A stretch of 64,000 nucleotides of DNA from the NCBI GenBank assembly GCA_020724465.1, contig DYGX01000001.1, positions 62,001 through 126,000 on the forward strand, read 5' to 3'. The translations under genes were made by a program, and so were the position numbers. The notes beneath the pieces were generated by a model that saw nothing but the letters and a program-made list of their open reading frames with translations, ran no database searches and had not been told where the DNA came from. Every line of letters starts with the position of its first letter. Within the stretch, counting starts at the first letter, position 1. Below are positions 19,421 to 30,708 of the stretch, piece by piece. Source of the stretch: Thermoflexus sp. Its GTDB lineage: Bacteria > Chloroflexota > Anaerolineae > Aggregatilineales > Aggregatilineaceae.

Positions 19421-20449
19421 ATGGCAACCGCTTACACAACGGATTCACGTTTCGCCCGGCATACCCTGCCAAACCATCCTGAGCACGCCGGTCGATTGCA
19501 CGCGATCGCGCAAGCCGTGACCGAGAGCGGGTTGCTTGAACGCCTTGTCTGGGTAGAGCCTCGCCAGGCCGAACAGGACGATCTATTGGCGGTTCATTCG
19601 GCTGCGTATCTGGCGCGCCTGGAAGCGACACGAGGCCACTCGCTGGTCATGCTGGATGCCGACACATATGCCACAGGCGAGTCGTACGACACCGCTTGCC
19701 TGGCGGCTGGCGCGGTGCTGGCGATCACGGATGTGGTGCTCGGTGGGGATGCCACGAACGGGCTGGCCGCCGTGCGTCCGCCGGGACACCACGCGACGCC
19801 CAACCGCGCGATGGGCTTCTGTTTGCTGAACAACGTGGCGGTAGCTGCTCGCTATGCGCAGCGCCAGCATGGGGTTGAGCGGGTGGTGATCGTCGATTTT
19901 GATGTGCATCACGGAAACGGCACGCAGGATGCTTTCTACGGCACACCGTCCGTGCTGTACATTTCGACGCACCAATCCCCGCTGTACCCCGGCACAGGCG
20001 CTGCGAATGAGGTTGGGGAAGGGTCCGGCGTCGGGTTCACTGTGAACATCCCCCTGCCGCCGGGCGTGGGTGATGCGGGGTATGGCGCGGCGTTTGAGCA
20101 CATCGTGATTCCTGCGCTGAGGCGTTTTCGGCCCGAGGTGATCTTTGTCTCCGCCGGATTTGACGCGCACTGGGCTGACCCGCTGGCACAGATGGCGCTG
20201 TCTCTTTCCGGCTACGACAGCATTGTGCGCAGGCTGGTTGAACAGGCTGCCGAACTCTGCCAGGGGCGGTTGGTGGCCGTGCTGGAGGGTGGCTATCATC
20301 TGGACGCGCTGGCATATGGATGGGCCAACACCATCCGCGCTTTTCTGGGCGACGAGGGCTGCGACGATCCGCTCGGCCCGGCTCGCGCCGCAGAGCGCGA
20401 TATCGACGCGGTTCTCCGCCGCATCCAGGCCATACACCATCTTCCTTAA
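19421..20449 (+). CDS. Histone-deacetylase family (class II-like) amidohydrolase
   Basis: 342-residue zinc enzyme of the arginase/deacetylase fold, ATG preceded by GAGAGGAG. Motifs: HPEHAGRL near the N-terminus, AAVRPPGHHA with the catalytic His pair, GFCLLNNVAVAA, the zinc ligands in VDFDVHHGNGTQDAF, and SAGFDAHWADPLA with the third zinc Asp, then LEGGYHLDAL. In bacteria such enzymes deacetylate lysine side chains, polyamines or small acetyl-amides; the substrate here is unknown. It stands alone between the hppA terminator and the promoter of the next gene. Confidence 0.9.
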   Translation: MATAYTTDSRFARHTLPNHPEHAGRLHAIAQAVTESGLLERLVWVEPRQAEQDDLLAVHSAAYLARLEATRGHSLVMLDADTYATGESYDTACLAAGAVLAITDVVLGGDATNGLAAVRPPGHHATPNRAMGFCLLNNVAVAARYAQRQHGVERVVIVDFDVHHGNGTQDAFYGTPSVLYISTHQSPLYPGTGAANEVGEGSGVGFTVNIPLPPGVGDAGYGAAFEHIVIPALRRFRPEVIFVSAGFDAHWADPLAQMALSLSGYDSIVRRLVEQAAELCQGRLVAVLEGGYHLDALAYGWANTIRAFLGDEGCDDPLGPARAAERDIDAVLRRIQAIHHLP

Positions 20450-20531: not shown

Positions 20532-23500
20532 ATGGGTGTTACTATGGCTGAGATGATCACGCTTCGCGCGTACCTGAACGAGCTGGAGTCGATGCTGGAG
20601 AATGAGTCGCCGACGGAGGTCCTCAGCCACTGCCGGTACATCTTGCAGCATTATCCCCAGAACGTCGCCACCTATCGTTTGCTGGGAAAAGCGCTTCTTC
20701 GCAAGGGGCACACCGAGGGGCTGCGCGAGCATTTTGAGCAGGCGGCTGACATCTTCCAGCGTGTGCTGTCGGTCATCCCCGATGACCTTGTTGCCCATCT
20801 GGCGCTCAGCGAGATCCGCGAGCAGGAAGGCGCGCTTGACGCGGCCATCTGGCACATGGAGCGCGCGCGGGACCAGATGCCCGGCAATGCAATGCTGCGC
20901 GACGCGCTGCGCAAGCTCTATACGAGAAAGTCCGGGCTGGAAAGCACGGGCACCGGCAAGCTCCAACTTTCGCGGGGGGCGCTGGCCCGCCAGTATGCCG
21001 ACAGCCAGCTTTACGATCAGGCGATTCTCGAACTGCGTGATGCCCTGCAAGCCTCGCCCTCGCGCGTCGATCTCCAGGTTCTGCTGGCGACGCTGTTGTG
21101 GGATACGCAGCGCACGCTTGAGGCGGGCGAACTGGCACTGGAAATTCTCAAACAGCTTCCCAACTGCCTGCAGGCCAACGCGTTGATGGCCCGCTTTTGG
21201 CTGGCGCACAGCCGGCCCGCCGATGCCCAGCCGTTCCTCAATCGCGTCGAGGCGGTCGATCCGTATGCGGCGGTAGGGATTTTGCGCCCCGGACAGGATG
21301 TGCCGGACTCCAACGTGCTGACCCGGCTTGACTACACCGCACGGGCGGCGGCGGCGCTGTCCCAGGAAACGCCGGAGTGGGTTCAGGAATTGAGCGATCT
21401 GGGTGAAGAGCGCAGCGCCTTCATCTCGTTCGCTGGCCAGGCGGGGGCTGGCCCCGCGCAGCCGCCCGATCGCGTTGATCTTGCCGCGGTTTTTGCGGAC
21501 GAACCGGAACCGGCGCAGCCCCCGGAGTGGGTACGCGAGATGCTTGAGGCAGATCGCGACGCGGGGCCGGAATGGATGCAGGGAAGCCATGCGGCAGCAG
21601 AACAGGCCGCCGACATTCCTACTCAGGATACGTGGGAGGGCGGCACTGCCGCGCCGGATGAGGAGGAAGCTGACCTGGCGGACGAGCCTCTGCCGGAGGA
21701 TGAAATACCTGCCTGGTTCGCCAGCGTGCCCGAAACGGAGCCGCAGGCCGAAGATGAGACCGTCCCCGACTGGTTCGCTCAGGCGCCAGCTGAGGATCAG
21801 GCAGCGGATCGTCCCTCTGAAGCTGAAGCGCCGGGCGCGATGACGGAGTTCCTGGCGGCGATTGAGCAGGCGCGGGATACGCCGTATGAACCAGAGGTCG
21901 AAGAGGAGCCGGCTGGCGCCCTGGACTGGCTGGGAGAGTTGGAAGAACTGGAGACATCGGAGCCGGTGTCCGAGATAAGCGCAGCCGGGGCCACCGCGCC
22001 AGAGCACGAGAGCTGGGCGCCAGAGGACGCCGTCGCCGAGCTGGGCGCCGCGTCCGCACAACCCGAACCGGCGGATGAGTTTACCTGGGAGGCTGAGGAG
22101 GCGGAGGCGGACCTGACGCCGCGGGACTGGCTGGAGTTCGCCGCCCCGACGCCGGAAACCGCGCCTTGGGCGGCAGATGCTGCGCCCGAAGATGGGATCG
22201 CAGATATCGACAGCCTGTTGCGCGCGCTGGATGCTACGGAGGCGTCCGGGCAGCCGGATGAATCCGCGAGCGGGTGGCCGGCGGAAGATCACGTTGAGAC
22301 AGCCGCTTCTGTTCCAGATGTGGTATCCGAAGCTGCTGGCGCTCCGCAGCCCGACGACTGGCTGGCGATGTTCGCGACCGGCGATGAGGAAGAGTTCGAG
22401 CAGGCGCCGGACGCCGCTGAGCCGGGCGAGCTGGTCAAGATGGGCCAGCCGGCGGAAGAAGAGCCGTCGCCGGAAGACTGGTCATCGGCTTCATTCGAAT
22501 GGATGGACAGCCTGCCCGACGTAGAGACGCCCGCTGGTGCTCAGGGGATGCCGGGCCTGGATTTCGCGGCGCAGGATGAGGAAAGCGTCGACGGCTGGCG
22601 CGACGAAGGCGTTCAGGCCGAAGCCGAGGCGGCTCTGGTCGATGAGCGCCCGCAGGAAGAAGCGGAGGTCGAACTGCCGGAGAGCACTCCGCCCGCCGAG
22701 GTCGACGTGATCACCGCCGGCAGTGACACGCAAGGGGTAGCAAAGGACGACCAGCTTCGCGCTGAGACGCTGGCCTGGGATGCGGGCGACGTGTGGGCCG
22801 AAGAGCCTGAAGAGACGGAACCAGCCGCAGCCGAGACGCCTGGATTCGCCCTGCCCGATGCTGAAGCGGCACTGCCCGAAGATGATTTGATGGCGATCTT
22901 TGGCGCGCCGGTTGATGTGCCGGCGTTTGATTTCGACGCTGAACTGGCCGCGCGGGAGCTTGACGAAGCCGCGGAGTGGTCGGCGCTGGTGGATGAGCCG
23001 GATCAAAGCGTCGCAGCTCTGGAGGAGCCGCCAGCGCAGGGGATGGGCGATGCTGCGGAACCGCCTCTGTATGCCGGGGCAGGGCCGGACGAGGTTGGTG
23101 CGCTGGCGTGGGACGCGGCGCCCGAAGAGGGAGAGATTGGCCAACCCGAGGTGCCCTTTGCCGTGGATGAAAGCCCGACTGGCGAATCAGCGGGGCAAGC
23201 CGGTGAGGACGTTCCGGCCACCAGCGGCCTGGCGCGTGCGGTTGAGGAAGCCCAGCAGTCGCAGTCACCGGACTGGATGGCAGACTTGGGGGTTCCTCCC
23301 GCGCCTGATAACGTCGTAGGCGACCTCTTTGATGAAGCCTATGACCCGTTTGAGGGTGGCGATCCGGCTGGTGTTCCGAAATATGAATCTGCGGGCCACA
23401 CCGGGGTGCTTCAGCCGGACGAAGAGCCGGACTGGATGCGCGCCTTCTCTGGGGAGCCGGCACTGGACGAGGCAGACGAGAGCGAAGCGGTGGAGCCGCT

Positions 23501-24101
23501 TGATTTCGCCGCCGTGGACCTGGTCGATGAGGCGCCGGAAGACGTGTTGGCGCCGTTTGATCTATCCCCGGAAGCTGCCGAAGCACCCGCTGCTGAGACC
23601 AGGCCGCCCGCACCGGAGTTTGATGTGGTTGACTGGGACATGCCTGGCGACGAACTGATTCTGGGCGCCGAGCCGGAACCTCGCGCCGATCAGGAAGCGG
23701 AGATGCCGGACTGGTTGAGCGCCATTACCCAGGCAGCAGCCGATGACGTGGCCGATCTGGGGCTGGATGATCAGGAGTTGTTCGCGCCCCCAGAAGCGGC
23801 ATCCGAACCGGAATGGCTGCGCGAAGCCGATGCGTTCGCGGAAGACGAAGGGTGGGCTGCGACGCCTGAAGCACCATCCACGGACCAGCTTGCACGGGCC
23901 ATCGATCTGCCGGATACTAGGAGCGCTTCGCCTGCGGAGCCGGTCGAAGAGGACGAGTTCGACCCGACATTCTCGTTCGCCGACCGCCAGCCTACCTGGC
24001 TCAGGCGGGGCGAGGGCCAAACCGGGCGCGAGCAGAGCAAAGATCCATCCGAGGGACACCCACCGCGTCCCTGGCTGGACGATCCGTTTGATGACAACTG
24101 A
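20532..24101 (+). CDS. TPR protein with long acidic, Trp-motif-rich tail
   Basis: 1189 residues; ATG at 20532, or a second ATG at 20544. The first 240 or so residues are tetratricopeptide-type helices (for example DIFQRVLSVIPDDLVAHLALSEI and YDQAILELRDALQASPSRVDLQVLLATLLW), a protein-binding platform. The remaining 900 are highly acidic and low in complexity, probably disordered, but punctuated by about fifteen short motifs of the form [P/D]-[D/E]-W-[L/M/V/F], such as PEWVREML, PDWFAQAP, DDWLAMFA, PDWMADLG, PDWMRAFS and PDWLSAIT. No signal peptide or membrane segment, so it is cytoplasmic. The regular Trp motifs in an acidic tail suggest repeated docking sites for one partner. I recognise no characterised homologue. 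It is followed after 77 bp by a second protein with the same motif style. Confidence 0.75.
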   Translation: MGVTMAEMITLRAYLNELESMLENESPTEVLSHCRYILQHYPQNVATYRLLGKALLRKGHTEGLREHFEQAADIFQRVLSVIPDDLVAHLALSEIREQEGALDAAIWHMERARDQMPGNAMLRDALRKLYTRKSGLESTGTGKLQLSRGALARQYADSQLYDQAILELRDALQASPSRVDLQVLLATLLWDTQRTLEAGELALEILKQLPNCLQANALMARFWLAHSRPADAQPFLNRVEAVDPYAAVGILRPGQDVPDSNVLTRLDYTARAAAALSQETPEWVQELSDLGEERSAFISFAGQAGAGPAQPPDRVDLAAVFADEPEPAQPPEWVREMLEADRDAGPEWMQGSHAAAEQAADIPTQDTWEGGTAAPDEEEADLADEPLPEDEIPAWFASVPETEPQAEDETVPDWFAQAPAEDQAADRPSEAEAPGAMTEFLAAIEQARDTPYEPEVEEEPAGALDWLGELEELETSEPVSEISAAGATAPEHESWAPEDAVAELGAASAQPEPADEFTWEAEEAEADLTPRDWLEFAAPTPETAPWAADAAPEDGIADIDSLLRALDATEASGQPDESASGWPAEDHVETAASVPDVVSEAAGAPQPDDWLAMFATGDEEEFEQAPDAAEPGELVKMGQPAEEEPSPEDWSSASFEWMDSLPDVETPAGAQGMPGLDFAAQDEESVDGWRDEGVQAEAEAALVDERPQEEAEVELPESTPPAEVDVITAGSDTQGVAKDDQLRAETLAWDAGDVWAEEPEETEPAAAETPGFALPDAEAALPEDDLMAIFGAPVDVPAFDFDAELAARELDEAAEWSALVDEPDQSVAALEEPPAQGMGDAAEPPLYAGAGPDEVGALAWDAAPEEGEIGQPEVPFAVDESPTGESAGQAGEDVPATSGLARAVEEAQQSQSPDWMADLGVPPAPDNVVGDLFDEAYDPFEGGDPAGVPKYESAGHTGVLQPDEEPDWMRAFSGEPALDEADESEAVEPLDFAAVDLVDEAPEDVLAPFDLSPEAAEAPAAETRPPAPEFDVVDWDMPGDELILGAEPEPRADQEAEMPDWLSAITQAAADDVADLGLDDQELFAPPEAASEPEWLREADAFAEDEGWAATPEAPSTDQLARAIDLPDTRSASPAEPVEEDEFDPTFSFADRQPTWLRRGEGQTGREQSKDPSEGHPPRPWLDDPFDDN

Positions 24102-24178
24102 GCTGGGCGCGCGAGGCGCATCCGTTCGGCTGCCGCAAAGCTGTCTGGCACGCAGCAGCATGTGAGGAGGATAGGGTG

Positions 24179-26518
24179 ATGGCACCGGCCCCCGATGAGT
24201 ATCCCGATTTTGATAGCATGACACCTGAGGAGCAGATGGCCTGGCTGGAGAGCCTGGCTCGCCGGCAGGGGGCAAACGCCGAGGAGTTCTTGACGGCGGC
24301 GGATCAGGATATCCCGATTCCCGAAGATGTCGAGATCGATGAGCCGGGTTATGTCCCCTATTCCGAACGCGAGGCCGGGCAGGTGCCGTCGACGGCTGAG
24401 GAGCCTGAAGCGCCCACTCCCGCCGAGGAGACAGCAGCCGAGCCGGAAGAAGTGGCTGAGCCATTCGCTGCCCTGGATGATGCCGAATTCCAGGCCAGAG
24501 CCTTTGAGGTCGCAGCCGAAATGAACGACCAGGAGGAGCCATCGGCGGCAGGCATTGCCGATCTGGAAGCGGCCGACGAGGTGCTCGAGGGCGCTGAACT
24601 CGCCGACCCGATGACGTGGTTGGGTAGCTTGGCGGCTCAGCCGGATGACGCGGCGCTGCTGGCCGATCTGGAGCGCGCGGGGCGCGAGGAAGACCTTGTC
24701 GCGGACTGGTCCGAGCTGGAGCGGACGTTTGACGAGCCGGCTGCTCAGAGCGAATTGAGCGCGGCGCTTGATTTTGCAGCCTCTGAGGAGTTCGATCTGG
24801 ATGACATCCTGGGGTTGGCGGAGGCTGGCTCACCAGAAGAGGAAGCCGGCACCCTGGAACAGGAAGACTCCGCCGGCTGGCTAGAGGGCCGCGTCGTTCG
24901 AGCCGGATCGGAGGAGGGGCAGGCGCCGGCAGAAGCGGCTGTCGCACCCGGCGGCTCGGACGAGGAGACGGCTCATGAGCTTGAGAGCGAACAACCCGAG
25001 GTGTACCAGGCTCGGATGGAGGCAGCCGAGATTGAAGAGGACATCCTCGGTGGCGCCGATCCGATGACCTGGCTTGAGACGCTCGCGCGGCGTCAGGGAG
25101 CCAGCCCGGAAGAACTGACCACCGAAGCCGATCTTGAGATCCCTGAGCTGCCGGAGGATACGGTCGTCGACGAGCCGGGCTATACGGAATACTCGCCCTT
25201 TGGCATCTTGCCACCACATCGGGACGAGGCGATCACCGAAGCGGTGGGGCGTCAGACAGATGCGGGACAGGCCGCGCCAGAGGAACTGGAAGCCTTGGGG
25301 GATTCTCTTAGCTGGCTACAGGAATTTACCGAGGAACCGCCCGCCGATCTGCGCGAGTGGCTGACCGTCGAGGACAGTTTTGTTGAAGCCGATCTGGATG
25401 CGGAAAGTGTGATAGAGGGCGTCGGGCAGCCATCTGCGGGCGAAACCGATGCGCTGGCGGGCATGACCGACGAGGAGATCGAACAGGCACTGCTGCGCGG
25501 CGAGCTGACTCCCGAGCAAGAGCTGGCGTGGCTCAAGCGCAGCACGCCAGATCGGGCAGGCGCGCCCGAAGGAGGCGAGGCCGCCCCGGCTGTGCCCGCG
25601 GACCTGCCCGACTGGCTCCAGCAGATGCGCGATGAGGCCATTGCTGCAACCGAATTCTCGCCGACCGACTCCGAACTCCCCGACTGGCTTGAGGAGCCGG
25701 TTGAGGAGGCCGCCGACGCCACGGACGATGCTGAGGCTCTGTGGGACGCAGCCGGTGCGGTTTCCGAAGAACTTGAACTGAGCGAGGCTGAGGTTAGCGA
25801 ATCGGATCTCGCTGCGTTCCTGGCCGGCGAGATCGCCCCTGAGGAAGTCGATGAGCTGGCCGAGGCTTTGGATGAGGAATTCGAGCGGCGCCTTCGCGGC
25901 GACGAATCGGAGCCGGAGTGGTATGCCGAAGCTGTGAGCGAGCGGGCCGCGCCTGAGCCGTCGCTCGCGGAGGCGGAGCCGATCGAGATGCCGGACTGGC
26001 TGGTGGAGCCTGATGAAGACGCTGCGGCGGAAAGCGAGCTTCCGGCGTGGCTGGCCGAGACAGAAGATGAATCGCCTGCATCGGTGGCTCCAGCGCCTGA
26101 ATGGCTGGAAGAGTTGCGGGTCGAGGAGTCCAATCTGACCTGGTTAGCGGAGGAAGACCGCACCGTGCCGCCTGAGGTGAGCGCAGGCGCCCCGGCGCGT
26201 CAGGCGACGATCCCCGAAGGCGAGTTGTTCGAATCATACCGGCATCGTCTGGAAGAAGCACCCGACGATCACGCGACGCGGCTGGCTCTGGCGCGCACGC
26301 TGCGCGCCCACGGCCAGATCACGCCCAGCCTGGATCACTACGAAACGCTGGTAGAAGGCGCGCACCTGCTCGAAGACGTTTCCAACGATCTGAGCGCGCT
26401 GGTGGACGAGCAGCCCGAACAGCCGCGCCTGCGCCGTTTGTTGGGCGATGCCCTGATGCGGCGGGGAAGGTTGCAGGAGGCGCTCGATGCCTACCGCGCT
26501 GCACTGGAGCGCCTGTAG
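24179..26518 (+). CDS. Acidic Trp-motif protein with internal repeats and C-terminal TPR
   Basis: 779 residues; the ATG at 24179 is eight bases after GAGGAGG. It is strongly acidic. A module of about 50 residues occurs near residues 14-63 (EQMAWLESLARRQGA, then IPIPEDVEIDEPGYVPY) and again near 293-340 (DPMTWLETLARRQGA, then IPELPEDTVVDEPGYTEY), with a degenerate copy near 145 (DPMTWLGSLAAQ). The second half carries motifs like those of the neighbouring protein: PDWLQQMR, PDWLEEPV, PDWLVEPD, PAWLAETE, PEWLEELR. The last 100 residues form two or three TPR units (ATRLALARTLRAHGQITPSLDHYETL, RLLGDALMRRGRLQEALDAY). Domain order is the mirror image of the upstream protein (TPR at the end instead of the start), so the two may act as a pair. 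Function unknown. Confidence 0.72.
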   Translation: MAPAPDEYPDFDSMTPEEQMAWLESLARRQGANAEEFLTAADQDIPIPEDVEIDEPGYVPYSEREAGQVPSTAEEPEAPTPAEETAAEPEEVAEPFAALDDAEFQARAFEVAAEMNDQEEPSAAGIADLEAADEVLEGAELADPMTWLGSLAAQPDDAALLADLERAGREEDLVADWSELERTFDEPAAQSELSAALDFAASEEFDLDDILGLAEAGSPEEEAGTLEQEDSAGWLEGRVVRAGSEEGQAPAEAAVAPGGSDEETAHELESEQPEVYQARMEAAEIEEDILGGADPMTWLETLARRQGASPEELTTEADLEIPELPEDTVVDEPGYTEYSPFGILPPHRDEAITEAVGRQTDAGQAAPEELEALGDSLSWLQEFTEEPPADLREWLTVEDSFVEADLDAESVIEGVGQPSAGETDALAGMTDEEIEQALLRGELTPEQELAWLKRSTPDRAGAPEGGEAAPAVPADLPDWLQQMRDEAIAATEFSPTDSELPDWLEEPVEEAADATDDAEALWDAAGAVSEELELSEAEVSESDLAAFLAGEIAPEEVDELAEALDEEFERRLRGDESEPEWYAEAVSERAAPEPSLAEAEPIEMPDWLVEPDEDAAAESELPAWLAETEDESPASVAPAPEWLEELRVEESNLTWLAEEDRTVPPEVSAGAPARQATIPEGELFESYRHRLEEAPDDHATRLALARTLRAHGQITPSLDHYETLVEGAHLLEDVSNDLSALVDEQPEQPRLRRLLGDALMRRGRLQEALDAYRAALERL

Positions 26519-26628: not shown

Positions 26629-27084
26629 GTGGAACGGACACTTATCATCGTCAAGCCCGACGGCGTGCAGCGCGGGCTGACTGGCGAGATCGTTCGCCGT
26701 TTCGAGGCGCGCGGCCTGCGCATCATCGGGATGAAGTTCATGATTCCCAGCCGCGAATTGGCCGCCAAGCACTACGCCCTGCACGAGGGCAAGTCTTTCT
26801 ACCCGGGGCTGCTGGACTACATCACGTCTGGGCCGGTTCTGGTGATGGCCCTGGAAGGGCCGGGCGCGATCGAAGCGGCGCGCAAAACAATCGGCAAGAC
26901 CAACCCGATCGAGGCGGAAGCTGGCACCATCCGGGGCGATCTTGGTATGACGATTGGGCGCAACCTGGTGCACGGCTCGGACGGCCCAGAAAGCGCGGCA
27001 AAAGAACTGGCGCTGTGGTTCGAGCCGCACGAGCTGGTAAGCTGGCAGCGCGACACCGATCGGTGGATTCTGGAAGACAACTAA
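26629..27084 (+). CDS. ndk: Nucleoside diphosphate kinase
   Basis: Transfers the terminal phosphate of ATP to other nucleoside diphosphates through a phosphohistidine. 151 residues, normal length, GTG start after GAGGA. Family motifs: TLIIVKPDGVQRGL at the N-terminus, the YYALHEGKSFYPGL-like loop, PVLVMALEGPGAI, the TNPIEAEAGTIRGD nucleotide loop and NLVHGSDGPESA with the catalytic His. A strong hairpin terminator follows directly. Confidence 0.96.
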   Translation: MERTLIIVKPDGVQRGLTGEIVRRFEARGLRIIGMKFMIPSRELAAKHYALHEGKSFYPGLLDYITSGPVLVMALEGPGAIEAARKTIGKTNPIEAEAGTIRGDLGMTIGRNLVHGSDGPESAAKELALWFEPHELVSWQRDTDRWILEDN

Positions 27085-28350: not shown

Positions 28351-30708
28351 ATGGCTCAAGATCAATCCAAGCGCCTGCTGCGACAAGGCATCACTGCGGC
28401 CAAGGAAGGGCGGGGGACTGAGGCGCTCGACTTGCTGCGCCAGGCTGTGCGTCTCGATCCATCGAGCGAGACAGCCTGGCTGTGGCTGAGCAGCGTGGCA
28501 CCCAATGACCGCGAGCGGGTCTTCTGCCTCAAACAGGTGTTGGCGATCAACCCCCATAATGAGTTCGCCATGAAGGGATTGATCGCATTGGGATATGAGC
28601 CGCAGCGGGCCGCCGAGCCTGCGCCCGGCTCGACGGTCCCCGTGCTGTCGGACGAAAAGTACGCCCGGCTTCAGCCTTTGCTCGATGAGGTTCTGGCCAT
28701 GGCCGGGACCCAACCGACGGCTTCTGAAGCTAACGTGTGGGTTCGCAAGACTCGCCGCCGCTATGGAGAGAGCACGGCGGAGCGGCTCCGGCAGGTGACT
28801 TATGCCGCGCTCATTTTGGTCGTGGTCGGGGTAACCGCCAGCGCTGCTCTGCTGGCTCAGTCTTTCGGCGTTTTCGGTGCAGGCAATTCAAGCGATAGCG
28901 TGGTGTACCGGCCGGTGCTCACCCCCACGCCCACGCCAACCTGGACTCCAACGCCCGGCTTTGGTCCCTCGCCGACTCCGTTTCCGAACCGGTTGAGCGT
29001 GGGGGCGACGGCGGTGCCCGTTGGTTTTGGCCCGGCAGGGAGCATCTACGGCATCGCGACGCCTACGCCGATTTACCCCGCTTTTGACTCGAGTGTGGAG
29101 CGGCGCATCAAGCCAGCAATCGACCTCTACTCTATTGGCCGCTACACCGAGGCACGCGCCGAGTTTGAAGCAGCTCAGGCATCTTACGCGCCGCAGTGCT
29201 ATCCTGCGCTGGTGTACTACCACGCCATGAGCTATGCCCGGCAGGGCGGCACCGCCAACCTGAGTGCAGCCGCGCGTCTTCTCGAAGATGGGCTGGCCTA
29301 CACCCCGCCAGAAGGCCGTTATCGTGGCGAAGGGTACGACTCCTGCCCGGACGCCCCGCTGCTGCATGCCGGGTTGGCCGAAGTCCGGCTAATGCAGGGA
29401 CGCGCCAGCCAGGCCTATTCGGCCAGCCAGAAGGCGCTTGAAGGCGACCCCGGCCTGGTTAGCGCCAGCCTGGTCAAAGCGGAGGTTGAGCAGTCGCAGG
29501 GAGATGTGGAAGCGGCGATCCAGACTCTGGAAGAGGCCCTCGCCCGGCACCCGCGCGACACGCGCCTGCTGATCCGTCTGGGCGAAATCGAATTGGAGCA
29601 GGGCCGCGCCAACGCCGCGCTGGAATACGCCGGAAAGGCGCTCTATGTCGATCCGCTGCTGCTGCCCGCCTTGCGGCTGCAGACTGCCGCCTATCTGGCG
29701 CTGGCGTCCGGTCCGGATGGCATATCGGACACGGCGCGCATGGAGTATTATGGGCTGGCGGCGCACAGCGCCGAGACGCTTCTGCTGTACTATCCGGGCC
29801 ACGCCGAAGGTTATCTGCTGCTGGCCGAAGCGCGGATGGGTGAGGGCAAGCTGGAACTGGCCGAGATGGCACTGGACCGGCTGCTGGCGGTTGAGGATGA
29901 AGATTTCCGGCAAGTATACGCAGATGTTACCCGCCGGGCCTATCAGTTGCGCGGCGAACTGTATTTCCGGCAGGGCCGCTACGAGCTTGCCGAGCGCGAT
30001 CTGCGGCTTGTCAGCCAGATGGCGCCCAGCTCACCACCGGTTGAGGTCGCCGATCGTCTGCTGGCGTTGGATCTCGGCGCGCGCATGTACGACGATGCCA
30101 GCCGGCAGATCGGGTTCCTGGCCGGCCGCTCGGGCGCTGCGTCCTCTGAATACCGGCTGACGCAGGCAAAGCTGTGGGTTGAGTACTGCGGCTATTCGGC
30201 GCTGGACGACCTCGGATGCGATTACGCCCGCGCGCTGAATCTGCTCGGCGATGCTTTCATCGAGCAACTGCCGGCAGCCAGCCAGGCCGAGGCGTATTCG
30301 CTGCGGGCGCAGGCGAAGTACTGGACGGAGAAGCAGCGCGATTTGCCAGCGGAGGCGAGCCGGGCCAACTATGAGTCCGCGCTAGAAGATCTCGATCAGG
30401 CCCGCGCTCGTCGCAGCGCGCCGATCGATCACTACTACCGTGGTCTGGTCTTGCTTGAGCTAGGGGAACTGAACCAGGCGCTGGCGGAGCTGCTGTGGGT
30501 GCGCTACTGGCACGACGTGTATGCCTATCCGTTCTTGCCAGACGATTTTGATGCGCAGGTTTCGGCGCTGGAGACTCGGGCGACCGAGGCGCTCGCGCTG
30601 GTTGCTCAGGGTGCGGGGGGGCGAACGCCGGCAACGCGCCAAGCCGCGCCGGCGCCCAGCCCGACGCCGACGCCGCTCCCGCCTGAGGATCGCCCGCAAC
30701 TGCCCTAG
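28351..30708 (+). CDS. Membrane-anchored TPR protein
   Basis: 785 residues; ATG after GGGGGG. A cytoplasmic N-terminal TPR-like pair (GRGTEALDLLRQAVRLDPSSETAWLWLS) precedes a single transmembrane helix (about residues 150-172), then a short Thr/Pro linker (TPTPTWTPTPG) and a large extracytoplasmic part with about ten TPR units, for instance YTEARAEFEAAQASY, DVEAAIQTLEEALARHPRDTRLLIRLGEIELEQGRANAALEYAGKAL. The protein ends in another Pro/Thr-rich tail. Family knowledge says only that TPRs bind proteins; an envelope assembly role is possible. Its N-terminal WLWLSSV helix is typical of related Chloroflexota TPR proteins (impression, not checked). Confidence 0.75.
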   Translation: MAQDQSKRLLRQGITAAKEGRGTEALDLLRQAVRLDPSSETAWLWLSSVAPNDRERVFCLKQVLAINPHNEFAMKGLIALGYEPQRAAEPAPGSTVPVLSDEKYARLQPLLDEVLAMAGTQPTASEANVWVRKTRRRYGESTAERLRQVTYAALILVVVGVTASAALLAQSFGVFGAGNSSDSVVYRPVLTPTPTPTWTPTPGFGPSPTPFPNRLSVGATAVPVGFGPAGSIYGIATPTPIYPAFDSSVERRIKPAIDLYSIGRYTEARAEFEAAQASYAPQCYPALVYYHAMSYARQGGTANLSAAARLLEDGLAYTPPEGRYRGEGYDSCPDAPLLHAGLAEVRLMQGRASQAYSASQKALEGDPGLVSASLVKAEVEQSQGDVEAAIQTLEEALARHPRDTRLLIRLGEIELEQGRANAALEYAGKALYVDPLLLPALRLQTAAYLALASGPDGISDTARMEYYGLAAHSAETLLLYYPGHAEGYLLLAEARMGEGKLELAEMALDRLLAVEDEDFRQVYADVTRRAYQLRGELYFRQGRYELAERDLRLVSQMAPSSPPVEVADRLLALDLGARMYDDASRQIGFLAGRSGAASSEYRLTQAKLWVEYCGYSALDDLGCDYARALNLLGDAFIEQLPAASQAEAYSLRAQAKYWTEKQRDLPAEASRANYESALEDLDQARARRSAPIDHYYRGLVLLELGELNQALAELLWVRYWHDVYAYPFLPDDFDAQVSALETRATEALALVAQGAGGRTPATRQAAPAPSPTPTPLPPEDRPQLP

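Follow-up and report, generated by a model that had tools for sequence, protein, structure and literature searches.

Two adjacent genes upstream of ndk as likely halves of one scaffold-like Chloroflexota protein with repeated tryptophan motifs

The window analysed here comprises 64,000 nucleotides of a Thermoflexus sp. genome (contig DYGX01000001.1, positions 62,001 to 126,000 of the forward strand). It contains two neighbouring genes on the plus strand, P1 (20532..24101, 1189 aa) and P2 (24176..26518), which were delimited by open reading frames, translations and orthologues, for P1 by orthologue alignments and synteny. P2 has 780 aa if read from a GTG at 24176 and 779 aa from an ATG at 24179. 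Because orthologues start with MAEM... (P1) and M[VA]P... (P2; e.g. MVPPP...), the true starts are likely ATG 20544 for P1 and ATG 24179 for P2, the latter being more probable than the GTG; it is preceded by AGGAGG. Downstream of P2 lies the conserved neighbour ndk, encoding nucleoside diphosphate kinase (26629..27084, plus strand; Pfam NDK, 3.3e-53; adjacency). The gene upstream of P1 encodes a histone-deacetylase fold (19421..20449, plus strand; Pfam Hist_deacetyl, 9e-102) and is, by synteny, a frequent upstream neighbour within the class. P1 and P2 are present in one copy each in the genome and neither matches the locus of the other, so that a within-genome duplication was rejected as the source of the pair. 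A second TPR protein of the window, unrelated to the pair (785 aa; 28351-30708), has its TPR at the N-terminus, followed by a probable membrane segment and a stretch rich in Pro and Thr; most relatives of the family keep its gene close to ndk.

P1 begins with a TPR domain of about six helix pairs (residues 9-251; 20556..21284, plus strand), and P2 ends with a TPR domain of three repeats (residues 680-779; 26216..26515, plus strand). This arrangement, N-terminal in one gene and C-terminal in the other, had been proposed in the first-pass annotation and was borne out by Pfam TPR matches together with AlphaFold2 models, built with orthologue alignments. P1 scored 48.9 bits against Pfam TPR_19 (cut-off 25), and the pLDDT of its domain was mostly 82-93 in blocks, with about 70 at residues 131-150. 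The C-terminus of P2 stayed under every single TPR cut-off (28.6 vs 32.7), yet it was modelled as three repeats with a pLDDT of 92-98, and the same domain ends the single-gene form described below. Judged by a repeat match and a modelled array of helical hairpins, both proteins count as TPR repeat proteins (Pfam TPR clan). Apart from TPR models, no curated Pfam or NCBIfam model exceeded its cut-off for P1 or P2 and no named family spans the whole protein. Foldseek returned generic TPR proteins and designed repeats only, the N-terminal TPR domain of P1 matching consensus TPRs, OGT and MamA. What P1 has in common with MamA and generic bacterial TPR scaffolds is just the TPR fold of this N-terminal domain, and MamA is devoid of a long acidic motif-bearing chain.

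The remainder of both proteins is very acidic (net charge -224 for P1 and -173 for P2) and mostly disordered, as had been suspected, with a pLDDT below 50 in 787 of 1189 residues of P1 and 375 of 779 residues of P2. The tail of P1 (21378..24074, plus strand) carries 15 W-[LMVF] motifs, from W283 to W1181, and shows little conservation beyond the motif islands; the chain of P2 (24242..26146, plus strand) has 13 such sites, from W23 to W656 (numbered from the GTG). Residue shuffles led us to expect 4.3 and 2.7 sites, and the observed counts were reached in 0 of 2000 shuffles. The first-pass annotation had reported about 15 and 12 motifs of the form [PD][DE]W[LMVF]. The abundance of Trp sites holds, but its total of about 27 matches only the looser W-[LMVF] pattern, because the strict form occurs 9 times in P1 and 4 times in P2 (0.26 and 0.13 expected). 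AlphaFold2 placed 17 of the 28 motifs inside short helices, at moderate confidence only. For 13 of the 28, the Trp falls within the first three helix residues, and the Pro-Asp pair would therefore serve as a helix cap.

P2 additionally harbours a module of 50 residues, two or three times as first described: copy 1 (24212..24364, plus strand; MTPEEQMAWLESLARRQGA...DEPGYVPYS) and copy 2 (25049..25195, plus strand; GGADPMTWLETLARRQGA...DEPGYTEYS) are full, and a third copy (24602..24649, plus strand; ADPMTWLGSLAAQPDD) is degenerate. Orthologues have two to three copies. The module reads DPMxWLESLAxRQGAxxEELTTAADxDIPxxPEDxVIDEPGYVPY; in an alignment of 17 copies, W, L, E, L, A, G, T, A, D and D-E-P-G-Y are invariant. 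In copy 1 the WLESLAR half is predicted as a helix (pLDDT ~80), and no Pfam entry was found for the module. Further downstream, P2 contains a conserved helical hairpin (25466..25558, plus strand; TDEEIEQALLRGELTPEQELAWLKR) with invariant and near-invariant columns and a pLDDT of ~72-91.

The motif follows a clear grammar. From 1135 sites in homologues, collected as W-[LMVFI], we derived the consensus [ED][ED][LIV]-P-D-W-L-[RK]-x-[LMI], with Pro at -2 in 60 % of the sites, Asp at -1 in 50 %, Leu at +1 in 76 % and Met at +1 in 11 %, a 4-8 fold enrichment of Arg/Lys at +2, and Leu at +4. The number of motifs tracks the length of the linker (r 0.82, ~53 aa per motif). In 48 of the 54 linkers, the motifs were spaced more regularly than by chance, in line with the even spread noted at first; this ratio serves as support and not as a formal test, since homologues share ancestry and the significance is overstated.

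Most other sampled Chloroflexota for which the full length could be read have a single gene encoding TPR, acidic linker and TPR, directly upstream of ndk, and within the class, leaving aside the window's order, the usual arrangement is a single gene that includes the C-terminal TPR and immediately precedes ndk. The cultured Anaerolinea thermolimosa IMO-1 (L154) is one of those with a single gene. A profile built on the TPR domain of P1 (E 1e-15) found a single-copy match in 163 of 298 genomes of the class and, across the phylum, a match in 149 of 400 genomes, nearly always once. On a tree of 91 N-terminal TPR sequences, the 16 split forms constitute one clade (support 98) nested among single-gene forms, and the split maps to a single change that is confined to the window's order. 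Because the split forms are one clade with one change and are ringed by single-gene forms, the pair arose through one gene fission in this order. A fusion was rejected, as the split clade lies amid single-gene forms and the outgroup consists of them as well, and so were P1 and P2 as independent chance neighbours, since most relatives hold both domains in one chain. Sequence comparison thus makes P1 and P2 the N- and C-terminal halves of one uncharacterised, scaffold-like Chloroflexota protein with folded TPR ends and a long acidic disordered chain between them. One TPR domain is N-terminal and the other C-terminal because they are the two ends of this parent protein.

Within the GTDB family of the window, the order P1-P2-ndk is kept wherever the contig reaches both ends, including two genomes with moved upstream genes; within this family the pair thus does stay together beside ndk, as had been put forward for checking. 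Among all loci, ndk is adjacent and on the same strand in 36 of 59, the rest including many truncated contigs. One member of the window's order (G229, L110:9077-10468) has only a short N-half of 463 aa with ndk overlapping, and seems to have lost the P2 half.

Across the homologues, the linker ranges from 86 to 1887 residues and the number of motifs from 0 to 52. Close homologues lacking the motifs had been named beforehand as a refutation; motif-free homologues were found only at a distance: all close ones have the motifs, and the remote members L097, L134, L184 and L185 have short linkers with zero motifs. The Trp motif is therefore dispensable for the core function. Six homologues outside the class (L177, L178, L179, L182, L190, L195) have linkers with 11-31 PF[ST][LFW] motifs in the setting EPELTPFSLEELGLSPEEI and at most two W-[LMVFI] sites each. 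Shuffled linkers of L177, L179, L182 and L195 contained on average 0.1-0.2 PF[ST][LFW] motifs, and no linker of the class has three or more. In these tiled linkers, a repeat of the form PFSLxxLGL replaces the Trp motifs. What both lineages conserve is therefore a design of two TPR domains joined by an acidic linker that is tiled with a repeated short motif. In four of the PFSLxxLGL linkers, a domain resembling Sigma70 region 1.1 also exceeded the Pfam cut-off (L179:9510-14837, L195:9532-14847, L182:4955-9559, L177:5335-9846). In one Anaerolineae homologue (L156:9992-13387), a helix-hairpin-helix domain (PF12836, E 3.6e-16) is inserted in the linker, immediately ahead of the C-terminal TPR.

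A genome-wide search at the DNA level for P-[DE]-W-[LF] gave 87 matches vs 69 for the reversed control, and on inspection dense clusters were seen at only two places, this locus and one other (G000:C28), so that common coding of PDWL throughout the genome was rejected. The second cluster belongs to an unrelated protein of 1065 aa with two predicted membrane segments and no Pfam match (L176:3999-7196 = G000:C28:36998-40192). Its acidic N-terminal tail of ~770 aa, predicted to be cytoplasmic by the positive-inside rule, carries 13 W-[LMVFI] sites, and the protein has 7 strict copies of the motif. The protein was matched in 37 of 41 relatives, and nine of ten that were examined have 5-12 strict motifs, the tenth being a fragment without motifs. 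The gene sits two genes upstream of a MutL-family (PF13941) gene. A further candidate, a Roadblock protein carrying the motif at C27:60853, was rejected, as the motif is out of frame. The occurrence of one motif grammar in two acidic chains that are unrelated to each other would point to a shared receptor; the motif common to both families could also in part be a lineage-wide style of disordered chain.

We lean towards a multivalent docking scaffold built as TPR, motif-bearing acidic linker and TPR, of which P1 and P2 are the halves and whose motifs serve a shared receptor. The linker would display many copies of acidic-[LI]-P-D-W-L-[RK]-x-L. In each copy, Pro-Asp would cap a short amphipathic helix, with Trp, Leu and the +4 Leu as its sticky face, and the copies would act together as multivalent docking sites. 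The TPR ends may bind other partners or each other, and the motif on the cytoplasmic tail of the two-transmembrane protein could bring both proteins to the same receptor. Direct support comes from the one-gene origin and the single fission, from the statistics, constraint and helix prediction of the motifs, from their sharing with the membrane protein and from their replacement outside the class; that the motifs bind something, that a common receptor exists and that the function is assembly is what we infer. The first-pass annotation had likewise suggested multivalent docking sites on an acidic scaffold. This is the best-supported reading of motifs that are retained, regular, recurring and often at a helix start, while it was missed that the two genes are one split protein. 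Multivalent scaffolds of this kind are known: Trp motifs of GW182 bind Argonaute, and DPW motifs of epsin bind AP2. Here as there, many evenly spaced Trp or aromatic motifs lie in a disordered chain on a folded domain; in sequence and hosts, these proteins are unrelated to the Chloroflexota protein.

The comparison of the window with a sister species bears on whether the motifs matter at all. The TPR ends are much more conserved than the linker (0.025 vs 0.241 substitutions per codon), which, together with the wide range of linker length and motif number, would suit a linker that is an entropic spacer or acidic bristle, with the two TPR domains as the functional parts and Trp helices that only keep the chain soluble or compact. 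We regard this as unlikely. Amino-acid change at motif codons was 0.119, half the 0.241 of the remaining tail, at nearly equal silent change (0.156 vs 0.167), and all 28 tail Trp were retained (circular-shift test, 0.004). Moreover, the same motif recurs in the unrelated membrane protein, and in other lineages the linker is not plain acidic chain but carries tiled copies of a different precise motif.

The motifs might instead be bound by the TPR domains of the family itself, within one chain or from copy to copy, much as the TPRs of kinesin light chain bind tryptophan-acidic peptides; the protein, and likewise its two split halves, would then self-associate into a network or condensate. A phase-separating scaffold would combine a multivalent motif with a receptor and droplet formation, and of these the motif counts and spacing show the multivalency. 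A tryptophan-acidic motif of the kinesin type is a Trp with acidic residues on both sides. The 1135 sites have acidic residues before the Trp, but at +1 Leu (76 %) or Met (11 %), not an acidic residue as in the kinesin ligand. Trp-acidic motifs are known to be recognised by the concave surface of TPR domains (PMC6224480). Each of the two split halves has a TPR as well as the motif, which could have held them together after the fission. The motif-free members, however, retain both TPR domains, and the N- and C-terminal TPR domains are themselves slightly acidic (net charge -5 and -7), which also disfavours simple charge attraction between acidic tail and TPR. We thus give self-association the same low probability as the spacer. 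The parallel to kinesin light chain and its cargoes SKIP and calsyntenin is a likeness in kind, namely TPR plus short Trp motifs in acidic disordered chain. In the kinesin system, a separate cargo bears the motif and the TPR is its proven reader, whereas here motif and TPR are on one chain; in contrast to the kinesin cargo, the Chloroflexota protein has dozens of motifs, with Leu after Trp.

A third possibility, somewhat less probable still than the spacer or self-association, is an effector or platform of a small GTPase system regulated by Roadblock/LC7. In nine loci outside the class (L177, L179, L180, L181, L182, L187, L190, L191, L195), and more weakly in L186 and L188, the homologue and ndk are separated by a Roadblock/LC7 gene; one of these Roadblock/LC7 genes matched PF03259 with E 2.4e-15. 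Among the regulators of Ras-like GTPases are Roadblock proteins such as MglB (PMC4316618), and MglA is partnered by TPR proteins in Myxococcus (SgmX) and Bdellovibrio (Bd2492) (PMC7519303, PMC3983030). SgmX and Bd2492 are likewise TPR proteins of bacteria that are connected with a Roadblock/Ras-like GTPase module. For the protein described here, however, the link is gene order alone and exists only outside the window's class, and no motif-tiled acidic linker is described for SgmX or Bd2492 in the literature consulted. Against such a platform, there is no adjacent GTPase gene, neither the window nor any of the class loci examined has a Roadblock gene between homologue and ndk, and the Roadblock genes of the window's genome lie elsewhere. 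We take the possible GTPase connection of the TPR-linker-TPR protein as a lead only. Nucleic-acid mimicry by the acidic chains, through which they would bind RNA polymerase or another enzyme acting on nucleic acid, is very improbable, as the Sigma70 region 1.1-like and helix-hairpin-helix domains which would fit this idea are limited to a few relatives and absent from P1 and P2.

The multivalent docking scaffold can be extended, tentatively and with considerable doubt, to a Chloroflexota assembly hub. Its docking motifs would be specific to the lineage, PDWLxxL for Anaerolineae and PFSLxxLGL for another, and would co-evolve with one receptor, the membrane protein would be recruited by the same code, and Roadblock/GTPase control might be involved. 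In the literature searched, no paper joins Chloroflexi, TPR and ndk, papers on Chloroflexi, TPR and disorder were unrelated by title and abstract, and none of those found describes a TPR-linker-TPR motif protein. Long disordered chains that bear short docking motifs by the dozen are a familiar feature of eukaryotes and have seldom been described for bacteria. Here, evolution provides natural experiments in the form of one gene fission, a wholesale motif swap between lineages and motif-free relatives. With a single copy in many Chloroflexota, a clear grammar, these natural experiments and a motif common to a membrane protein, the putative receptor is therefore searchable by peptide pull-down and co-evolution.
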